Translations under genes and position numbers: made by a program
Part shown: positions 14,928-31,636 of the stretch, one piece after another
Layout of the letters: each line of letters begins with the position of its first letter
Numbering within the stretch: the first letter of the stretch is position 1
Notes under the pieces: model-generated
What the model was told of the DNA's origin: nothing
What the model saw: the letters and a program-made list of their open reading frames with translations, nothing else
Databases searched by the model: none
From: Myxococcales bacterium
GTDB lineage: Bacteria; Myxococcota_A; Polyangia; Polyangiales; Polyangiaceae
Assembly: GCA_012514535.1 (NCBI GenBank)
Contig: JAAZAA010000084.1
Coordinates: 1 to 33,013, forward strand
Reading direction: 5' to 3'
DNA length: 33,013 bases

Positions 14928-17222
14928 GTGAGTTTCGCGACCACGCCTGGGGGAGGGCGGAGGGCTCCGTCTCGAATGGGTTGGCTGGCGCTCGTGCCGC
15001 TGACGTCGTTCTTTGCCGCCTTCGCCCTGTTGCTGCGGGGAGGGCCTCCGCTCTCCGTGAGCGTGCCGTGGGTTCCGTCGCTGGGAGTCGACCTCGGCGT
15101 GCACCTCGACGGTCTGGCGTTGCTGATGGTGCTCCTGATCACGGGCGTCGGGGCCTGCGTGTTCGTCTATGCCGCGGGGTACATGCAGGGCGAGTCCGGG
15201 CGCAGGCGACTCGCGCTGGTGTTGCTTCTGTTCATGACGGCGATGCTCGGCTGCGTCACCGCCGACAACCTGCTCGTGGTGTTCGCCTGTTGGGAGATCA
15301 CCAGCATCACCTCGTTCTTGCTCGTCGGGTTTCACCACGAGGAGGAGTCGAGCCGGAAGTCCGCGCTCCAGGCGCTGCTCGTGACGACGGGCGGTGGCTT
15401 GGCGCTGCTGGCCGGGGTGGTGCTCCTGGGCAACATGGCCGGGACCTACTCCATCCAGGAGCTCCTGCGCACCGCTCCCGCCTGGCGGGAGCAGCCCCTC
15501 CGCGACGTCGCGCTCCTGTGCGTGATCGTGGGGGCCTTTTCCAAGTCCGCGCAGCTGCCGTTCCACTTCTGGTTGCCCAACGCCATGGCCGCGCCCACGC
15601 CGGTGAGCGCCTATCTCCACTCCGCGACCATGGTGAAGCTCGGGGTGTACCTCCTCGCTCGGATGGACGCCGCCTTCGACGGCACGCCCTTCTGGGGCTT
15701 CACCCTGATGAGCTGCGGCGGGCTCACCTCTGCCTGGGCGGTGTTGCAGACCCTGCGTGAGCGAGACCTGAAGCGCATCTTGGCCTGGTCGACCGTATCT
15801 GCCTTGGGGACGATGGTGATGTTGATCGGATTGCCCGGCGACGACTCGGCGCTCGCCGTCGCGGCGTTCGTCCTGGCGCACGCCTTGTACAAGGCGCCCC
15901 TGTTCTTCGTGGCGGGCAACGTCGATCACAGCACTGGCACGCGGAACATCGATCACCTGGCGGGGCTGGCTCCCCGCATGCCCTGGACCGCTGCGGCGGC
16001 GCTGTTGGCCGCGGCGTCCATGAGCGGCTTCCCGATGTCGTTCGGGTACCTGGCCAAGGAGCTCACGAACGTCGCGAAGAAGGAGGGGGGCCTGTATACG
16101 TGGATCGGCCACTCGAGCGTGCTGGCGAGCGCGATCACCGTGGCCGTCGCGGCGATCGCCGCCATCCGTATCTTTTGGCACCGCGGAGGGGCCGTGGTGC
16201 CCGGGCACGTGCACGAGGTGGGCTGGAGCATGCGCCTGCCTCCGCTGCTGATCGCCTCCGTCGGGATCCTCTTCGGCGTCCGCCCGCGCCTCGCGGACCC
16301 GCTGATCGGGGCTGCGGCGGAGGCCATGCACCCGCTCTATGATTTCGCGGCCGCGTCGGCGACGGCGCGCGCCGAGCCTGGCTGGACGGCGCTGCTCGTG
16401 GCCCTGACCCTCGGCGTGGGGGTCTTCCTCGCGTGGGATCGCCTGCACGATGCCCTGGGCAAGGTGGAGCTCCCGTCGGTGCTGCGGCTGGCGGACTGGT
16501 ACGAGCGGCTCCTGCGGGGGATCCCGGCTGCAGCGCGCGGAGTCACGGGGCTGCTGCAGCGTGGCGCCTTGACGGGCTACGTCACGTCGCTGGTCGGGTT
16601 CGTCGTCGTGGTCCTCGGCGCGGTGACCTGGGCGCTTCTTGGGCAGCGCGGGGTCGCGGTGGAGGTCTCTCCGGGAGGAGCGCCCTGGGGCAAGGACCTC
16701 GGGGTTCTGGGGGCGGCCGTGGTGCTCAGCGTCGGGGCAGTCGCCGCCTGCCTGGTGCGCGACTCGTTCGTGTTGTTGTTGTCGAGCGGGCTCGTGGGGA
16801 TGGCGTGCGCCCTGCTATTTCTCTTCCTCGGAGCTCCCGATCTCGCGTTCACGCAGTTCGGCGTGGAGGTCGCCTTCGTGGTCGTCGTCGCGTCGACGCT
16901 GCTCCGCCTGCGGCGGATGGACGCCCGACCCTCGGCGCCTCAACGGCGGTTGCCTCGGATCGTCCTGTCCACCTCCCTCGGCGTGCTGGTCACGGCCCTG
17001 CTCCTCGTCGCCCTCGGGGCACCCACCTTCGACCCGGAGGTCGCCGCGTTCTTCGCGGAGCACAGCGTCGAGGACGCTCACGGCCGAAACGTCGTGAACG
17101 TCCTCCTCGTCGATTTTCGTGCCTTCGACACGCTCGGGGAGATCGTCGTCGTGCTGGTGAGCTTCCTGGCGACGCTCCCATTGTTCCAGGCGCTGCGCGT
17201 CCGCGGAGGTGAGCCGTCGTGA
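14928..17222 (+). CDS. mrpA: Mrp-type Na+/H+ antiporter subunit A (fused MbhD/MbhE-like C-terminus)
   Basis: 764 residues from GTG 14928, chosen because GAGGGA lies just upstream; TTG 14871 and ATG 14976 are alternatives. It is the largest membrane subunit, related to NuoL. Conserved ion-path residues are visible: E123 in CWEITSITSFLL, K206 in FSKSAQLPFHFWLP and K237 in SATMVKLGVYLLAR. The C-terminal 200 residues carry the MbhD-like segment (GAPDLAFTQFGVEVAFV) and the MbhE-like segment (FDTLGEIVVVLVSFLATLPLF). The first family transmembrane helix is missing: sequence similarity begins at the second one (MGWLALVPLTSFFAAF) after about 17 polar residues. Its stop overlaps the mrpB start (GTGA), so it heads the antiporter operon. 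Confidence 0.95.
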   Translation: MSFATTPGGGRRAPSRMGWLALVPLTSFFAAFALLLRGGPPLSVSVPWVPSLGVDLGVHLDGLALLMVLLITGVGACVFVYAAGYMQGESGRRRLALVLLLFMTAMLGCVTADNLLVVFACWEITSITSFLLVGFHHEEESSRKSALQALLVTTGGGLALLAGVVLLGNMAGTYSIQELLRTAPAWREQPLRDVALLCVIVGAFSKSAQLPFHFWLPNAMAAPTPVSAYLHSATMVKLGVYLLARMDAAFDGTPFWGFTLMSCGGLTSAWAVLQTLRERDLKRILAWSTVSALGTMVMLIGLPGDDSALAVAAFVLAHALYKAPLFFVAGNVDHSTGTRNIDHLAGLAPRMPWTAAAALLAAASMSGFPMSFGYLAKELTNVAKKEGGLYTWIGHSSVLASAITVAVAAIAAIRIFWHRGGAVVPGHVHEVGWSMRLPPLLIASVGILFGVRPRLADPLIGAAAEAMHPLYDFAAASATARAEPGWTALLVALTLGVGVFLAWDRLHDALGKVELPSVLRLADWYERLLRGIPAAARGVTGLLQRGALTGYVTSLVGFVVVVLGAVTWALLGQRGVAVEVSPGGAPWGKDLGVLGAAVVLSVGAVAACLVRDSFVLLLSSGLVGMACALLFLFLGAPDLAFTQFGVEVAFVVVVASTLLRLRRMDARPSAPQRRLPRIVLSTSLGVLVTALLLVALGAPTFDPEVAAFFAEHSVEDAHGRNVVNVLLVDFRAFDTLGEIVVVLVSFLATLPLFQALRVRGGEPS

Positions 17223-17653
17223 CCTCCCGTGCGCTCCTCCTCGACGTGGTCGTTCGCGGGCTGCACCCGTTCATGATCTTCGTCTCGGTCATGCTCCTCC
17301 TGCGTGGACACGACGCGCCGGGAGGCGGGTTCATCGGAGGGCTGGTGGCGGTCGCCGCCACCGCGTTGCTGACGGTGGCGCGAGGCCATCGTCAAGCGCT
17401 GGCGCGCCTCCCCCTGGCGCCGGTGCCCCTGGCGGCGCTGGGGGCGTTGCTCTCCCTGGGGAGCGGGGTGCCCGCGCTCTGGGTCGGCGAGCCCTTCCTG
17501 ACGCACCTGTGGGTGGAGGCACCGGTCGGTCCGTGGCTGGTCCCCCTGTCGACGGTGCACCTCTTCGACGTCGGCGTGTACGCGACCGTGTGGGGTGCGC
17601 TGGGGGGGCTCGCCGCGGCGATCATCGCCGTCGACGAGGAGGGGGCGGCGTGA
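17219..17653 (+). CDS. mrpB: Mrp-type Na+/H+ antiporter subunit B
   Basis: 144 residues, four hydrophobic segments. The family signature HPFMIFVSVMLLLRGHDAPGGGFIGGLV is almost complete (the Pro/Gly-rich GHxxPGGGFxGG motif), and TVHLFDVGVYATVWG lies in the last membrane segment. The GTG start overlaps the mrpA stop in GTGA and the stop TGA overlaps the mrpC ATG by one base, so translation is coupled on both sides. It is a membrane subunit required for a complete Mrp complex; it is not itself thought to be the ion-translocating channel. Confidence 0.95.
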   Translation: MTSRALLLDVVVRGLHPFMIFVSVMLLLRGHDAPGGGFIGGLVAVAATALLTVARGHRQALARLPLAPVPLAALGALLSLGSGVPALWVGEPFLTHLWVEAPVGPWLVPLSTVHLFDVGVYATVWGALGGLAAAIIAVDEEGAA

Positions 17654-18042
17654 TGCTCGTGGTCGCCTGCGCCGTGGGGGTCAGCCTGACCGCGGGGGTG
17701 TACCTCACCTCGTCCCGGGATCTGCTCCGCTGCGTCATCGGGATCTCGCTCATCGGGGTCTCCGCGAACCTCGCCATGTTCGCGGCGGGGCGCTCCACGA
17801 CGGCGTCGGCTCCCCCCGTGGTCCTGGAGGGGGCGCGCCAGCTCCCGGTCGACGCGGCGAACCCGCTGCCCCAGGCGCTCGTGCTCACGGCCATCGTCAT
17901 CAGCTTCGCGCTCACCTGCTTTTCGCTGGTGCTCGCGCTGGTGTTGCAGCAACGAACGGGCATCTCCGACGCGGACGCCCTGCGCCGGTCGGAGCCGCCT
18001 CCCTGCCCGGACGGGAAACCGCCGCTCGAGGGGGAGTGCTGA
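17653..18042 (+). CDS. mrpC: Mrp-type Na+/H+ antiporter subunit C (NuoK-like)
   Basis: 129 residues. It has the NuoK-like three-helix pattern: helix 1 from the N-terminus, SRDLLRCVIGISLIGVSANLAMFAAG, and NPLPQALVLTAIVISFALTCFSLVLAL, where the DPLPQALVLTAIVI motif of MrpC appears as NPLPQALVLTAIVI. The ATG overlaps the mrpB stop (TGATG). The last 28 residues are polar and Pro-rich, longer than usual. It forms part of the membrane arm next to MrpD. mrpD begins 3 nt after its stop. Confidence 0.95.
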   Translation: MLVVACAVGVSLTAGVYLTSSRDLLRCVIGISLIGVSANLAMFAAGRSTTASAPPVVLEGARQLPVDAANPLPQALVLTAIVISFALTCFSLVLALVLQQRTGISDADALRRSEPPPCPDGKPPLEGEC

Positions 18043-18045
18043 GCG

Positions 18046-19560
18046 TTGTCGTCCCTCGTGCTCACTCCCGTGCTCGTGCCCCTCGGTACGGCTCTGCTCA
18101 CCGCTGCCCTCGTCGGTCAACCCCGGGCTCAGCGGCTCACGGCGCTCCTCGGGACGGGGGCGCTGTTGGGGTGCGCCGGGGCGCTGCTCCGCGAGGTGCA
18201 ACGGATGGGGCCGGTCCGGACCCACTTGGGCGCCTGGCCTGCCCCCTTCGGGATCGAGCTCGTCGCGGACGGCCTCGGGGCAGCCATGGTGTTGCTCATG
18301 GCGATCGTCGGCGCGGTGACCCTGCTGTTCCAGCAGAGCTGCGCCGATCCGGCCCCGGCGAGGCCGGGCTTGCTGCCGCTGTTCAGCGTGCTCCTCGCCG
18401 GGGTGGGCGGCACCTTCGTCACGGGGGATCTCTTCAACCTCTACGTCTGGTTCGAGGTGCTGCTCTTGGCGGCGCTGGGACTGCTCGCGCTCGGCGGGCA
18501 GGTGCGGCAGCTGGACGCCACGCTCAAGTACTTCGTGTTGAACACCCTGGGCACGCTGCTGCTCCTGGTGGGGATCGGCTACCTCTACGCCGCGACCGGC
18601 CACTTGAACTTCGGTGCGCTGCGGGAGGCGGCAGGGCGGGGCGAGGCGGCGTCGTGGCTCCCGTTCCTGGTCGTGCCCTTGTTGGCCTTCCTGGTGAAGG
18701 CGGGCGCGTTCCCGTTGTTTGCGTGGCTGCCGGCTTCCTACCACACGTTGCCGGGCCCGCTCCTGGCCCTGTTCGCGGGGCTACTCACCAAGGTGGGGGT
18801 CTACGCGATCCTGCGCACGCTGAGCGATGTGTTCGCAGCGTCTCCGCGCGTGATCTACGAGTGCGTGGGGTGGCTGGCGGTGCCTACGATGATCGTGGGC
18901 GCCCTCGGCGCGGCGTACCATTGGGATCTGAGACGCATCCTCGCGTTCCACGTCATCAGCCAGATCGGTTACCTCCTGCTCGGGGTAGGGCTGGGCACGA
19001 TGGCGGGCGCGTCGGCCACGGTGTTCTACCTCGGGCACAACGTGCTCGCGAAGACGAACCTCGTCTTGATCGCAGCCATCGTGTTCCGCTTGGGGGGCAG
19101 CTACGATCTGAGGAGATGCGGGGGGCTCTACAAGGCACGCCCGCTGCTCGCGGTGATGTTCTTGATCTCCGCCTTCGCGATGGTGGGCGCGCCTCCGCTC
19201 TCGGGATTCTGGGCGAAGCTCATGTTGATCCGGGAGACGTTGCTGCTCGAGCGCGGTGTCTGGGCCGCGGCGGCCCTCACGACGGGCTTCTTGACGCTGT
19301 ACTCGATGTCGAAGATCTGGCTCGAGGCGTTCTGGAAGGAGAGGCCTCCACGGGACGAATCCCACGGCAGCGAAGCGGGGCACGCGCTGGAGCGCCCCGA
19401 AGGGCTCGGCTGCGCCTATGCAGCCGTGGGGATCCTCGCCGGGCTCACGGTCGCGCTCGGGCTCTTCCCGGAGCCGGTGGTGAGCTTCCTGGATCGCAGC
19501 GCCGGCCAGCTCGGGGTGGCTCGTGTCCACCCATCCCCAGGCTTCGGAGGAGCGCCATGA
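18046..19560 (+). CDS. mrpD: Mrp-type Na+/H+ antiporter subunit D (NuoM/N-like)
   Basis: 504 residues, the normal length. It is a polytopic antiporter-like subunit with E137 in LYVWFEVLLLAALGLL and K218 in FLVKAGAFPLFAWLPASY, at the positions known to be needed for proton movement in MrpD of alkaliphilic Bacillus. K249 follows in LLTKVGVYAILR. The start is TTG at 18046, supported by GGGGGAG upstream in the end of mrpC. The stop overlaps the ATG of a 27-codon small ORF (ATGA at 19557-19560), not mrpE directly, which is unusual. Confidence 0.95.
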   Translation: MSSLVLTPVLVPLGTALLTAALVGQPRAQRLTALLGTGALLGCAGALLREVQRMGPVRTHLGAWPAPFGIELVADGLGAAMVLLMAIVGAVTLLFQQSCADPAPARPGLLPLFSVLLAGVGGTFVTGDLFNLYVWFEVLLLAALGLLALGGQVRQLDATLKYFVLNTLGTLLLLVGIGYLYAATGHLNFGALREAAGRGEAASWLPFLVVPLLAFLVKAGAFPLFAWLPASYHTLPGPLLALFAGLLTKVGVYAILRTLSDVFAASPRVIYECVGWLAVPTMIVGALGAAYHWDLRRILAFHVISQIGYLLLGVGLGTMAGASATVFYLGHNVLAKTNLVLIAAIVFRLGGSYDLRRCGGLYKARPLLAVMFLISAFAMVGAPPLSGFWAKLMLIRETLLLERGVWAAAALTTGFLTLYSMSKIWLEAFWKERPPRDESHGSEAGHALERPEGLGCAYAAVGILAGLTVALGLFPEPVVSFLDRSAGQLGVARVHPSPGFGGAP

Positions 19561-19640
19561 TCGCCACGAGCACCAGCGGCATCACCACGAGCGCCCTCAC
19601 CACGAGCTCCGACGGGGCCGTCCTCGGAGGACGGAGATGA
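19557..19640 (+). CDS. Small ORF of 27 codons between mrpD and mrpE
   Basis: A peptide starting MIATSTSGITTSALTTSS and ending GGRR; about 11 of 27 residues are Ser or Thr, with no membrane segment. It is too short for usual gene finders. Evidence that it is translated: its ATG overlaps the mrpD stop (ATGA), its own stop overlaps the mrpE ATG (ATGA), a consensus GGAGGAG lies four bases before its ATG, and its third codon positions are almost all G or C until the mrpE ribosome-binding site begins. I recognise no family. It may be a real small protein of the antiporter complex or a translational coupling device that links mrpD and mrpE. Confidence 0.6.
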   Translation: MIATSTSGITTSALTTSSDGAVLGGRR

Positions 19641-19981
19641 GCTGGGCGCGACGTATCCCGGTCGTCATGCGTTTGGGAGCCCACTTCCTCGGCCAGGTGG
19701 TGCACTCCGGACTGCTGACCGCCTGGCTCATCGTGCGCCCCGGTCCGCGGCCGCGGTCCGGGCTCGTCCGCATCGGCTACGAGAACCTCAGCGAGACCGG
19801 CGCGGCCGTCCTGGGCTGCCTCGTGACGCTCACGCCGGGGTCGACCGCGGTGGACATCGACCCGGAGCGCCGGGAGCTGCTCCTGCACCTGCTCGACGCC
19901 TCGAACGCGTGCGCGGTGGCGAGCAACATCCAACGGCGCTTCGCGATCCCGCTGCAGCGCGTGTTCCCGGAGAAGGGGTGA
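19637..19981 (+). CDS. mrpE: Mrp-type Na+/H+ antiporter subunit E, N-terminally short
   Basis: 114 residues, against about 158-165 in well-studied MrpE proteins. The conserved core is present: a helix followed by a VHSGLLTAWLIVRPG segment and the LVTLTPGSTAVDIDPERRELLLHLLDA signature (usually xxTLTPGTxxVD). Similarity begins where the usual third hydrophobic segment lies, so the first two membrane helices are absent. The ATG at 19637 overlaps the small ORF stop and has GGAGGA five bases upstream. The frame stays open upstream but encodes a His/Arg-rich stretch, not membrane helices, so no better start exists. Confidence 0.9.
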   Translation: MSWARRIPVVMRLGAHFLGQVVHSGLLTAWLIVRPGPRPRSGLVRIGYENLSETGAAVLGCLVTLTPGSTAVDIDPERRELLLHLLDASNACAVASNIQRRFAIPLQRVFPEKG

Positions 19982-19995
19982 GTCGGGGGTGAGTC

Positions 19996-20307
19996 ATGAG
20001 CGAGGTGTTGGTGGGGGTCATCGTCGTCGGCGCGCTGACGGCCTTGGGGATGGCGGTGTCGCGGTTGCTGCGCGGTCCGAGCCAGGCCGATCGCGTGGTC
20101 GCCCTGGACGTCGTGTTCTCCTCGAGCATCGCTCTCGCCGCCGGGGCGGCGGTGGGCAGCGGCGCGCCCCTGTATCTGGACGTGGGGATCGGGCTCTCCA
20201 TCATCGGCTTCGTGTCCACCGTCCTCTGGGCGCGGCTGTTGGATGAGGCGACGCGCGGAGAAGAGCGAGCGCCTCGGGAGCCACCGAGCCACGGGGACAC
20301 CCCATGA
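19996..20307 (+). CDS. mrpF: Mrp-type Na+/H+ antiporter subunit F
   Basis: 103 residues with three hydrophobic segments. The MrpF signature RLLRGPSQADRVVALDVV follows the first segment (family RxxxGPxxxDRVxALD). The last 20 or so residues are charged. The ATG lies 14 nt after the mrpE stop and is preceded by GGGGG-TGAGTC. Its stop overlaps the mrpG start (ATGA at 20304-20307). Confidence 0.93.
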   Translation: MSEVLVGVIVVGALTALGMAVSRLLRGPSQADRVVALDVVFSSSIALAAGAAVGSGAPLYLDVGIGLSIIGFVSTVLWARLLDEATRGEERAPREPPSHGDTP

Positions 20308-20639
20308 GGGCGGCGCTGGCGCTCTGCGTGACGGCGCTGGGGGCGACGCTGTTCGTCGTGGCCGCGTGGGGCGTGCTGCGCCTGCCGGACACGCTGTCGC
20401 GTCAGCACGCGGCCACCAAGTCCGCCACGTTTGCGCTCGGTTTGATCTTGCTCGGGGTGGCGCTGCACGCAGGGGAGGGGAGCTGGTGGGTGCGGGTGGT
20501 GGCGATCGAAGCGTTGTTGCTCGTGACGTTGCCCGTGGCGTCCCACATGCTCTCCCGGGCCGCGGCGCGCCACACCTACACCCTCGACGAGCTGCGGAAC
20601 GCGCCCCACGTCGGAGAGCCGCGAGCTCCGGAGCGCTGA
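20304..20639 (+). CDS. mrpG: Mrp-type Na+/H+ antiporter subunit G
   Basis: 111 residues, three hydrophobic segments. The MrpG signature GVLRLPDTLSRQHAATKSATFALGL is clear (family RxPDxYxRxHAxTKxxTLG). This is the last gene of a complete A-G set, expected to assemble one membrane complex that exchanges Na+ for H+. The start overlaps the mrpF stop. A hairpin lies about 55 nt downstream of the stop. Confidence 0.94.
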   Translation: MRAALALCVTALGATLFVVAAWGVLRLPDTLSRQHAATKSATFALGLILLGVALHAGEGSWWVRVVAIEALLLVTLPVASHMLSRAAARHTYTLDELRNAPHVGEPRAPER

Positions 20640-27183: not shown

Positions 27184-28914
27184 TCAGGCGACGGAGAACA
27201 CGGCGACGCCGTCCGCGTCGAGCTCCACGGTGCCCGGTCCGAAGACGGGCGCGCCATTTCCGAGCAAGAGCTCCTCTGGCTGACGAGCGAGAGGGATCGC
27301 GCGCCGGCGCGCGGCGAGGTTCACGGCCACCCCGACGGCGCCACGCAGCACGACGAGCCAGCGCTCGGCTTCGTCGTGGGTGACGTGCACGTCCTCGATG
27401 CGCCCCCCACGGAGCTCCGGGCGCGCGCGCCGCAGCCCCAGGAGCGCCCGATACCAGCGCAGCAGCCGCTGGTGGGGCTCCCGCTCCAGCTCGGTCCAGT
27501 CGAGCCGGGACGACCGAAACGTCTCCGGATCTTGGGGATCGGGCACCGCCTCTGGATCCCATCCGAACGCCCGAAACTCGTTGCGGCGCCCCTCGCTCAC
27601 GGCGCGGGCGAGCGCGGGATCCTCGTGGTCGGTGAAGTAGAGGAACGGCGTGCGGGCGCCCCACTCTTCGCCCTGGAACAGGAGCGGCACGAAGGGGCTC
27701 GTGAGCAACAGCGCCGCGGCGATCTCGAGCCGCTCCACGGACAGGAGCTGACTCGTGCGCTCCCCGCGGGCCCGATTGCCGACCTGATCGTGGTTCTGGG
27801 TGCACACCACGAACTGGTGTCCCGAGAGCCCCACCGGGGGGCGCCCGTGTCGACGCCTGCGATGAGGGGAGTACACGCCGTCGTACACCCAGGCTTGGCG
27901 CAGCGCCTTCGCGAGGTGAGCCAGGCTCCCGAAGTCGCGATAGTAGCCGTCGCGCTCGCCGGTGAGCGCCGCGTGCAGCGCGTGGTGCCACTCGTCCGCC
28001 CACGCGGCGTCGAGGCCGTAGCCGCCGCTGGCAGCAGGCCGCACGAAGCGCGGGTCGGACAGGTCACTCTCCGGCATCAGCCAGAGGCGGCGGCCGAGCT
28101 GGGCGGACAGCTCCCGGACCTCGCTGGACAGCTCTTCGAGGAAGTGGAGCGCCGAGTCGTCGACGAGGGCGTGCACGGCGTCGAGCCGCAACCCGTCCGC
28201 GTGGTAGTCGCGCAGCCACATGCGCGCGTTGTCCAGGAAGAAGCGCCGGACGTGATCGCTGTCCGGTCCGTCCAGGTTCACGCCGTCTCCCCAGTTGGTC
28301 GAGTGACGACTCGAGAAGTAGGGTCCGTACTCCCCCAAGTAGTTCCCGGACGGGCCGAGGTGGTTGTAGACGACGTCGACGATCACGCCGAGGCCGCGCG
28401 CGTGGCAGGCATCGACGAGGCGCTGGAGCCCGCCCGGCCCGCCGTAGGCGTGGTGCGGCGCGAAGAGATCGACGCCGTCGTAGCCCCAGCCCCGCGTGCC
28501 GGGGAACTCGACGACGGGCATCAGCTCCACGGCGTCGACGCCGAGATCGACGAGGTGATCCAGGCGGGCGATCGCGCCGTCGAAGGTGCCCTCGGGAGAG
28601 AACGTCCCGACGTGGAGCTCGTAGAGCACGGATCCGGGCAGGTGAAATCCCTTCCAAGCGCCATCGCTCCACGGAAACCCAGCGAGATCGACGACCTGGC
28701 TCGGGCCATGGACGCCCGCCGGTTGGTGCTGGGAGCGAGGATCCGGCAGGGGACGCCCGCCATCAAGGACGAACGCGTAGTTCGTCCCCGGTCCGGCCTC
28801 GGGCACCTCGAGGAACCACTCATCGTCCGGACCGCGGTGGAGCGCGCGGCGCTCGCCGGCGATCTCGACCTCCACGCCGTGACGGGCGCGTGGCGCCCAG
28901 ACGGAGAACCTCAT
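27184..28914 (-). CDS. treZ: Malto-oligosyltrehalose trehalohydrolase
   Basis: 576 residues, normal for the family. This GH13 enzyme cuts trehalose from the end of maltooligosyl-trehalose. N-terminal carbohydrate-binding-type beta domain (1-90), then the catalytic barrel with LYELHVGTFSPEGTF (98-112), DVVYNHLGPSGNYL (180-193), nucleophile D245 in GLRLDAVHAL, acid/base E282 in LMPESDL, and D376 in TQNHDQVGN. GGAGGT lies six bases before the ATG. It follows treY with a 46-bp gap and is the last gene of a treX-treY-treZ unit, which turns alpha-1,4-glucan into free trehalose, a common stress and desiccation protectant. Confidence 0.95.
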   Translation of the reverse strand: MRFSVWAPRARHGVEVEIAGERRALHRGPDDEWFLEVPEAGPGTNYAFVLDGGRPLPDPRSQHQPAGVHGPSQVVDLAGFPWSDGAWKGFHLPGSVLYELHVGTFSPEGTFDGAIARLDHLVDLGVDAVELMPVVEFPGTRGWGYDGVDLFAPHHAYGGPGGLQRLVDACHARGLGVIVDVVYNHLGPSGNYLGEYGPYFSSRHSTNWGDGVNLDGPDSDHVRRFFLDNARMWLRDYHADGLRLDAVHALVDDSALHFLEELSSEVRELSAQLGRRLWLMPESDLSDPRFVRPAASGGYGLDAAWADEWHHALHAALTGERDGYYRDFGSLAHLAKALRQAWVYDGVYSPHRRRRHGRPPVGLSGHQFVVCTQNHDQVGNRARGERTSQLLSVERLEIAAALLLTSPFVPLLFQGEEWGARTPFLYFTDHEDPALARAVSEGRRNEFRAFGWDPEAVPDPQDPETFRSSRLDWTELEREPHQRLLRWYRALLGLRRARPELRGGRIEDVHVTHDEAERWLVVLRGAVGVAVNLAARRRAIPLARQPEELLLGNGAPVFGPGTVELDADGVAVFSVA

Positions 28915-28960
28915 GACCGCACCTCCAGGGGGTGCGCCGCGCGGGCGGTGGATCGTGTCC

Positions 28961-31636
28961 TCATACGTCGTTCACCCTCTCCAGGAGCGCGACCGGGAAC
29001 CGCCCGAGGAGGGCGCGCCCCGCGATCGTACCGCCCTCGAGCGCCTCTCCGGTGAGCCGGTTTCGCCAGGAGCCCCGCGGGAGCTCACACTGCAGCTCCG
29101 GGCTCCAGCGGGGATCGCGCTGCAGCGCGCGCGCGGCGAGCCGCGGCACGAGCACGGCGACTCGATCGCCGCGGGTGAAGCCGACGCAGTACCGCGCCTC
29201 GGGCCCCTCGAAGGAGAGGGGGCGGTAGGCGCCCGCCGCGCCGCTCCCGAACGCGGCGGGGTGACGCCTGCGCAGATGCAGCGCGGCGCGGATCACGTGG
29301 AGCTTGATGGCTCCGTCGTCGGCCCGCGCCACGAGGTCCTCGGGGGTGCGCTGGTCGAGCTCCGCGAGCAGACGGCGTCGCACCTCGTAGTCGACGGGGC
29401 GGCGGTTGTCGGGGTCGACGAGGCTGAGGTCCCAGAGGTCGGTGCCCTGATACACGTCGGGCACTCCGGGCGCCGTGAGCGCGAGGAGGGTCTGAGCCAG
29501 GGAGTTGACCCGCCCGGGCCAGAGCAGCGAGTCGACGAACTCGCCGAGGGCGCTCTGGAACTCTCCGTCGAGAGCGACGCGCTCCACGAAGCCGCGTAGC
29601 GCCTGGTCGTACTCGGCGTCCGGGTTCACCCAGCTCGTGCGGCGCTTGGCCTCCTTCGACGCCTTCTCCATGTAGGCGGCGGCCCGGGGCGCTTCGAGGG
29701 GGTGGGCCCCGACGAGCGCCTGCAGGAGCACGTAGGCGGCGTCCGGATCGTACTCCCCGGACCAGTGGCGCTCGAACCGACGGACCCAGCGCTCCGCGAA
29801 GGTGCACCACTCGCGCGCGAGCTCCGAGAGGACGAACAGGCGCGCGCGCACGTCGGCGCTCCGCTTCGTGTCGTGGGTGGACAGGGTGCGCATGGTGTGG
29901 GGCCAGCGCGCGTGGCTCTCCTCCATGGCGCGATGGAACTGGTCCGGCGTGACCCCGAAGCGAGCCGGGTTCCCGCCCACCTCGTTGAGGGCAACGAAGC
30001 GGTTGAAGCGATAGAAGGTCGTGTCCTCCACGCCCTTGGCCATGGCGGGCCCCGTGAGCTGCTGAAAGCGCATCACGAGGTCGTGTTCGAGGGGGCTGGC
30101 GTTCGCGACGCGCAGCAGGAGCAGGCTCTCGATGAACTCGAAGAGCTCGCCGTCCAGGTCCGGGCGACGCTCTCGGGCCGCGGCGATCGCCGCGGTGACG
30201 TAGCGGGCGTCCGCCGGGCGCACGAGCCCCTCCGCGGCCCGCACGTAGCTCCGGTACACGGGGAAACAGGCGACGACCTCGCGCAGCGCCTCCGTCAGAT
30301 CCCAGCGGGTGTAGTCGCGATGACGTCGGTGCCGCTCGCACACGGCGACGAATACCTCCGCCAAACGGGTGACGTCCGCCGCCAGGATCTCGCGGAGCAC
30401 GAGGCGCTTGTTCCGGTAGACCGCCTCTTCGTAGTCGAGATCGTTGCCGGTCAGATCCCGGTAGAGGTTCGTGATGGGCGTCTCCCCCTCGGGATCCACG
30501 AACAGCCCGCCCACGAGATTGCAGAACTCGTAGCCGGTGGTGCCCGCCACCGCCCACTCCGTGGGGAGCTCCTCGTCCGCCTCCAGGATCTTCTCGGCCA
30601 CGGTCCACGCGCCGCCAGTGGCCTCGGCGAGCCGGGAGAAATACTGCTCGGGATCCAGGAGCCCGTCGGGGTGGTCGACGCGGAGGCCGTCGACGACGCC
30701 CGCCGCGATCCACTGCAGGACGAGCGCGTGGGACTCCTCGAAGACCCGCGGGTCCTCGACGCGCAGGCCCGCCAGAGTGTTGATGTCGAAGAAGCGCCGG
30801 TAGTCCAGCTCGCGCCCCGCCGTGCGCCAGTACGCCACGCGATAGTTCTGCGCCTCCAGGAGCCGATCGAGCGCGTCCACGTCCCGGTTGATGTTGGCCA
30901 CCTCCTCGTCGATGGCCGCGCCGACCTCGGGGTTCTGCTCCAGCAGGCGCGCCAGCTGCGCCGTCAGCACCCGCTGATCCCGGTGACGCTCCTCGACGCT
31001 GGCGGGATCGGTGAGGGTGGCGTAGGGGAGGCGCCCGTAGGCGGTGGCGATGAAGGCGAGCTCGTCGGACTGGATGCGGCGCGCCGGCGGTGCGAGCAGG
31101 CCGCGCAGCGTCCTCGGCGCGATCGGCAGGACGTGGTCGAAGTAGCGGACGTGGAAGACGGGCCCCTCCCGCTCCAGCACGAGCTGCCCCGCCTCCAGGA
31201 CCCGCCCGTAGTGGTCGCCGAGGATCGGCATGAGCACCAGGTTGCGCAGCTTGGCCTCGGGGGAGTCCCAGGTGACGTCGAAATACGGCGCGTAGCGGGA
31301 CGCGGGCCCGTTCTGGAGCACGTCCCACCACCAGCGGTTCTCCCGACCAGGGATGGCCATGTGATTGGGGACGATGTCGAGCACCTGTCCGAGGCCGGCC
31401 TCACCGAGGGCGCGGCAGTAGCGGGCGTGCCCCTCCTCACCGCCGAGCTCCGCGTTCGGTCGGCTGTGGTCCACGACGTCGTAGCCGTGGGTGGAGCCGC
31501 GGGCGGCCTGCAGCTGGGGCGACGAGTAGACGTGCGTCACCCCGAGCGCTCTCAGGTAGGGCAGGACGCCGATGGCGTCCTCGAAGCGAAAGCCGGGGTG
31601 GAGCTGGAGGCGATACGTCGAGCCAGGGGGATTCAT
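28961..31636 (-). CDS. treY: Malto-oligosyltrehalose synthase
   Basis: 891 residues, somewhat longer than the 720-780 of the archaeal and Arthrobacter enzymes but within the range of proteobacterial ones. It isomerises the terminal alpha-1,4 bond of a maltodextrin into an alpha,alpha-1,1 trehalose bond. Family motifs: STYRLQLHPGFRFEDA (6-21), LGVTHVYSSP (31-40), DIVPNHMAI, GLRVDHPDGLLDP with the likely nucleophile D321, VAEKILEADEELP with the likely acid/base E348, and STHDTKRSADVRAR. No clear Shine-Dalgarno precedes the ATG, which lies 79 bp after the treX stop. Confidence 0.95.
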   Translation of the reverse strand: MNPPGSTYRLQLHPGFRFEDAIGVLPYLRALGVTHVYSSPQLQAARGSTHGYDVVDHSRPNAELGGEEGHARYCRALGEAGLGQVLDIVPNHMAIPGRENRWWWDVLQNGPASRYAPYFDVTWDSPEAKLRNLVLMPILGDHYGRVLEAGQLVLEREGPVFHVRYFDHVLPIAPRTLRGLLAPPARRIQSDELAFIATAYGRLPYATLTDPASVEERHRDQRVLTAQLARLLEQNPEVGAAIDEEVANINRDVDALDRLLEAQNYRVAYWRTAGRELDYRRFFDINTLAGLRVEDPRVFEESHALVLQWIAAGVVDGLRVDHPDGLLDPEQYFSRLAEATGGAWTVAEKILEADEELPTEWAVAGTTGYEFCNLVGGLFVDPEGETPITNLYRDLTGNDLDYEEAVYRNKRLVLREILAADVTRLAEVFVAVCERHRRHRDYTRWDLTEALREVVACFPVYRSYVRAAEGLVRPADARYVTAAIAAARERRPDLDGELFEFIESLLLLRVANASPLEHDLVMRFQQLTGPAMAKGVEDTTFYRFNRFVALNEVGGNPARFGVTPDQFHRAMEESHARWPHTMRTLSTHDTKRSADVRARLFVLSELAREWCTFAERWVRRFERHWSGEYDPDAAYVLLQALVGAHPLEAPRAAAYMEKASKEAKRRTSWVNPDAEYDQALRGFVERVALDGEFQSALGEFVDSLLWPGRVNSLAQTLLALTAPGVPDVYQGTDLWDLSLVDPDNRRPVDYEVRRRLLAELDQRTPEDLVARADDGAIKLHVIRAALHLRRRHPAAFGSGAAGAYRPLSFEGPEARYCVGFTRGDRVAVLVPRLAARALQRDPRWSPELQCELPRGSWRNRLTGEALEGGTIAGRALLGRFPVALLERVNDV

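Follow-up and report, generated by a model that had tools for sequence, protein, structure and literature searches.

A lineage-specific spacer with a double-overlap mini-ORF at the mrpD/mrpE junction of a Myxococcales genome

Layout of the mrp operon

We analyzed a window of 33,013 nt (positions 1 to 33,013, forward strand, of contig JAAZAA010000084.1, assembly GCA_012514535.1) from a Myxococcales bacterium. The mrp/mnh/pha operons encode CPA3 antiporters. The window holds a complete one, in which A, B, C, D, E, F and G were all recognized with Pfam and follow one another in this order, as the seven subunits do in canonical operons. It differs from those in an extra spacer with a mini-ORF between D and E, and in a short-form MrpE, which is also found in its whole closest clade. 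The features are the following.

14871 onward, + strand: mrpA (PF00361/PF13244/PF20501), start probably at 14976 by codon-score gene calling
17219-17653, + strand: mrpB (PF04039)
about 17653-18042, + strand: mrpC (PF00420)
18046-19560, + strand: mrpD, 504 aa (ORF list; PF00361, E=1e-52)
19546-19552, + strand: GGAGGAG, Shine-Dalgarno sequence (SD) of the mini-ORF, read from the sequence 4 nt upstream of its ATG
19557-19640, + strand: 27-codon mini-ORF, MIATSTSGITTSALTTSSDGAVLGGRR and stop, with an ATGA overlap at both ends (sequence and ORF list)
19561-19636, + strand: 76-nt spacer, lineage-specific (absent at related D/E junctions) and single copy (whole-genome search)
19571-19607, + strand: imperfect 15-nt tandem repeat CACGAGCGCCATCAC, 2.5 copies (repeat analysis)
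19618-19634, + strand: perfect hairpin CCGTCCT-CGG-AGGACGG, 7-bp stem, -10.9 kcal/mol, with the mrpE SD in its 3' arm
19637-19981, + strand: mrpE, short form, 114 aa (PF01899, E=4.9e-21, profile positions 39-144)
19996-20307, + strand: mrpF (PF04066)
20304-20639, + strand: mrpG (PF03334)

mrpD ends in ...GCG CCA TGA, and the mini-ORF ATG (19557-19559) shares the ATGA at 19557-19560 with that stop codon (19558-19560); its TGA, ending at 19640, shares a second ATGA (19637-19640) with the ATG of mrpE at 19637. Sequence and ORF list together confirmed this double overlap, which a first-pass annotation had described, and the GGAGGAG that it placed four bases ahead of the mini-ORF ATG is indeed there. 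Third codon positions, said to be nearly all G/C, are G or C in 24 of 27 codons, and the peptide, called Ser/Thr-rich and not hydrophobic, carries Ser or Thr at 11 of 27 residues and is polar and Ser/Thr/Gly-rich by inspection. mrpE has an SD of its own, GGAGGA, ahead of its ATG. Stop/start overlaps of 4 or 1 nt are taken to mark the set of translationally coupled overlapping genes, and both junctions of the mini-ORF, at 19557-19560 and 19637-19640, are of the 4-nt type.

A spacer carried by one genome

We located the mrpD stop codon and the mrpE reading frame in 98 loci, 93 of which are used in the counts after the window and duplicate loci were left out. mrpE starts inside the mrpD stop by exactly 4 nt in 77 of these 93, and this overlap is kept with either a long or a short MrpE N-terminus. 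The start lies within -15 to +6 of the mrpD end in 88/93, and an SD core precedes it at 67 of 88 related junctions, in agreement with the earlier statement that canonical mrp operons run directly from D into E. The first-pass annotation had suggested looking for the same ORF at this place in relatives; the mini-ORF was found in none of the 93 loci and its peptide had no match in 96 related genomes, which rules out a conserved peptide; the insert is carried by one genome only. The closest MrpD homologues are 58-61% identical and come from other Myxococcota, and two genomes of the same genus gave no MrpD match at E<=1e-60. Because D normally leads straight into E and the mini-ORF is absent in relatives, the window has a lineage-specific insertion of ~80 nt, and its junction is shifted by ~80 nt from the ancestral -4 overlap.

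MrpE aligns from residue 1 with its own clade (22 relatives in the alignment), showing that its N-terminus is full length from 19637 and that the extra ~80 nt therefore lie wholly between the genes. Accordingly, mrpE probably once initiated where the mini-ORF, with its GGAGGAG, now starts, and it has probably acquired a second SD and ATGA. The ancestral operon would have had the mrpE start inside the mrpD stop codon (ATGA), and ~80 nt would then have been inserted, or have grown by repeat expansion, leaving an SD and an ATGA at each end. The short form lacks the first ~38 positions of the Pfam profile, throughout the closest clade, and this missing part is the region of the helix pair at the N-terminus that makes up the dimer interface in a solved Mrp structure (PMC7419157). 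We also considered whether the spacer is the decayed N-terminus of a long-form MrpE and rejected this, as the whole closest clade is short and the spacer peptides are non-hydrophobic in any + strand frame.

The composition of the insert is peculiar. TA and TG dinucleotides are entirely absent from its 76 nt, so that stops are impossible in any + strand frame, and the mini-ORF frame is open already from 17595, through mrpD (ORF list); for both reasons the openness of the frame is no evidence of use. The Ser/Thr richness of the peptide is largely due to the imperfect 15-nt tandem repeat. A whole-genome search found no second copy of the insert, the next matches being 26 nt at 88% or similar; these weak matches fall inside long open frames and are of chance quality. 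A repeat or mobile element within its own genome is thus ruled out, the only match being to itself. The insert also had no RNA family match in Rfam. The two copies of SD and ATGA are spaced 80 nt apart and share no visible similarity beyond SD and ATGA, and a tandem duplication of the junction was rejected on this ground.

Proposed translational coupling, or a chance frame

The explanation that we prefer, at a probability of roughly 0.55, is a spacer insertion whose mini-ORF restores the translational coupling of D to E, with the peptide being incidental. When genes are ~20 nt apart, reinitiation is almost abolished in H. volcanii and E. coli (Huber et al. 2023, PMC10666635), and D and E should therefore lose their coupling across an untranslated 76-nt spacer; a ribosome that terminates at mrpD would face a gap too long for direct reinitiation at mrpE. 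The mini-ORF, running from the old mrpE site to the new one, would allow ribosomes to translate across the gap and to melt the hairpin covering the mrpE SD, and reinitiation at mrpE would then take place at the customary -4 overlap; the peptide would have no function of its own. Of 14 tests of overlapping gene pairs, 13 showed strict coupling (Huber et al. 2019, PMC6728339), and it has been suggested that a short ORF can bring ribosomes to the start of the gene that follows it (PMC12548453). Three points are inferences: ribosomes translate the mini-ORF, mrpE relies on it, and the arrangement has a selective reason.

This arrangement resembles the known ATGA termination-reinitiation coupling (PMC6728339; PMC10666635) in that genes of the same orientation, encoding subunits of a single complex, overlap by 4 nt, and in the SD ahead of the downstream start. 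Such coupling normally involves one overlap between two real genes; at this junction there are two, and a 27-codon ORF that spans the 76-nt spacer connects them. Since its peptide is common to no relative, the mini-ORF represents a minor variant of a type of translational coupling already known, and not a new protein; it is a real, lineage-specific feature of a known kind. Another small ORF between operon genes is mgtQ, in the Salmonella mgtC-mgtB intergenic region; its translation acts via RNA structure to raise expression of the transporter gene that lies downstream (PMC8092293). mgtQ, however, acts via ribosome-destabilizing acidic codons and alternative stem-loops (PMC8092293), neither of which is evident in the mini-ORF.

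The main rival, to which we assign a substantial but clearly smaller likelihood, is that the ORF arose by chance in a neutral spacer: the insertion parted D and E, mrpE, which could start independently of the mini-ORF from its own good SD, does so, and the open double-ATGA frame is a by-product of the inherited ATGA at the D stop, of the ATGA with which E starts, and of GC-rich DNA in which no + frame can hold a stop. The GGAGGA preceding the mrpE ATG is in favor of this. So is the frequency of such frames in this genome, where 156 same-strand gaps measure 20-200 nt and 5 of them contain ORFs with a 4-nt overlap at each end, the mrpD/mrpE case included; these statistics come from 1.05 Mb of contigs and 706 genes called by a simple codon-score caller, which undercounts genes. 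Double 4-nt overlaps are thus uncommon but not rare here. One of them also lies within the window, where the minus-strand mini-ORF MRTRSTARAAHPLEVRS (28911-28964) joins two co-directional genes by ATGA at both ends; its codon score is negative.

One point against a chance frame is that the codon bias is specific to its phase (p of about 0.001-0.025). The codon score is 4.0 in the mini-ORF frame versus -19.6 and -4.5 in the other frames, and a score as high or higher was found in 75% of in-frame gene windows and in 10% of stop-free intergenic windows. It was reached by 0.1% of dinucleotide shuffles, or by 2.5% when the internal 15-nt repeat was tied, and among the five double-overlap mini-ORFs only that of mrpD/mrpE scores above zero, the other four being below. 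The second point against a chance frame is the occlusion of the mrpE SD in the predicted hairpin: a 7-bp stem over the SD occurs at 1.0% of 573 gene starts, and by predicted accessibility the mrpE SD ranks among the lowest 10%. Folding of the whole junction was no stronger than that of shuffled sequences (z=0.37). The codon-bias and hairpin signals favor use of the frame, but they are modest and post hoc.

Other D/E spacers and remaining explanations

Spacers between mrpD and mrpE were also seen in other lineages, and they bear on both readings. Two Burkholderiales loci, L061 and L237, have 34-nt spacers with 13-codon mini-ORFs that carry ATGA at both ends (5461-5502 in L061). Their peptides, MNRRSRHMNCRAA and MMTSIQHRKEYLA, are unrelated, and the spacers are identical at 13 of 34 positions even though the MrpE proteins are 77% identical; the mrpE start of L061 has no obvious SD. 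This pattern fits a bridge whose sequence is irrelevant, with the proviso that, at the spacer length which the two share, it is not unlikely for a frame this long to be open. A third Burkholderiales locus, L055, has a 9-codon mini-ORF ending 4 nt ahead of mrpE. This repeated bridging of D/E spacers in Burkholderiales argues against a chance frame.

On the other hand, L095 (Phycisphaerae) and L097 (Balneolales) have D/E insertions of 200-340 nt without a bridging ORF, which implies that a bridge is not required for persistence of the operon. The bridge is therefore not obligatory, a point that counts against the coupling account and for the chance frame. The suggestion in the first-pass annotation of a coupling device remains plausible, being supported by the double overlap across the 76-nt gap, the hairpin over the mrpE SD and the Burkholderiales bridges, and it is weakened by these two unbridged lineages.

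A broader proposal is that mini-ORFs of this bridging type arise repeatedly as an evolutionary repair where genes for subunits of a complex meet, and that Myxococcota and Burkholderiales provide independent instances. DNA would be inserted into an ATGA overlap and selection would keep the frame that joins both ATGAs, so that start, stop and frame are held while the sequence drifts. We regard this generalization as rather doubtful; if it is true, the mrpD/mrpE junction is a natural test case. The mini-ORF of the window, if translated, is a clear example from nature of an ORF whose peptide does not matter but which maintains translational coupling between two subunits of a complex despite an insertion, and it cautions against annotating such bridging ORFs as small proteins. 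If untranslated, it lies in an ordinary lineage-specific spacer.

It is improbable that a short MIRU-like mobile repeat with its own ORF was inserted at the D/E ATGA and duplicated it, and this idea concerns the origin of the spacer and is compatible with coupling. In PMC12548453, mycobacterial MIRUs are described as duplicating ATGA on insertion (citing Supply et al. 1997), and the MIRU internal ORF as becoming coupled at the insertion site with -4 nt spacing. Like a MIRU, the mini-ORF overlaps the neighboring gene start by 4 nt, and the 80-nt period between the two copies of SD and ATGA would agree with such an event. That insertion does happen at this very junction is shown by an ATGA-bounded repeat of ~100 nt in Balneolales. 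The insert of the window differs from a MIRU in that it is single copy and outside any repeat family in its own genome, and, being non-repetitive, it is not a MIRU; the absence of an Rfam match is also unfavorable.

The Balneolales repeat lies in two tandem copies at the mrpD/mrpE junction of L097 (5515-5716; MAG SLNO01000018.1) and has 45 matches in that genome. The copies that we inspected have ATGA at the beginning and end just ahead of ATGAAA, often an apparent gene start. Its appearance is that of a family of MIRU-like elements occurring outside the mycobacteria. The ~340-nt insertion in the Phycisphaerae MAG (L095:4880-5222) has inverted-repeat-like segments, CCCGGCTGAAGCCGG ... CTTCAGCCGGGCTT, and is possibly a mobile element.

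The first-pass annotation had also offered an extra small component of the antiporter. The ribosome-binding site, the coding-like codon usage and the place within a complex-encoding operon would suit a small Mrp subunit or functional microprotein, but neither the related mrp operons that were examined nor the 96 related genomes contain the ORF, the sequence is low-complexity, repeat-derived and without a hydrophobic segment, and the mini-ORFs of other lineages at this junction encode unrelated peptides. The product had no Pfam match and hence no recognizable Mrp domain, and no membrane segment was seen by inspection. With D running directly into E in 88/93 loci, we consider a subunit very unlikely. 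An N-terminal extension of mrpE from GTG 19523, in which the spacer would encode 38 extra His/Arg-rich residues, is allowed by the mrpE frame being open back to 19523 (ORF list), but it lowers the codon score from 28.8 to 23.5, is found in no relative and would lengthen a protein already full length from 19637, and we give it next to no credence.

At the other end of mrpE, a tandem 11-nt repeat, GGGGTGAGTCG, spans the stop codon (19975-19995), and mrpE and mrpF do not overlap in the window.
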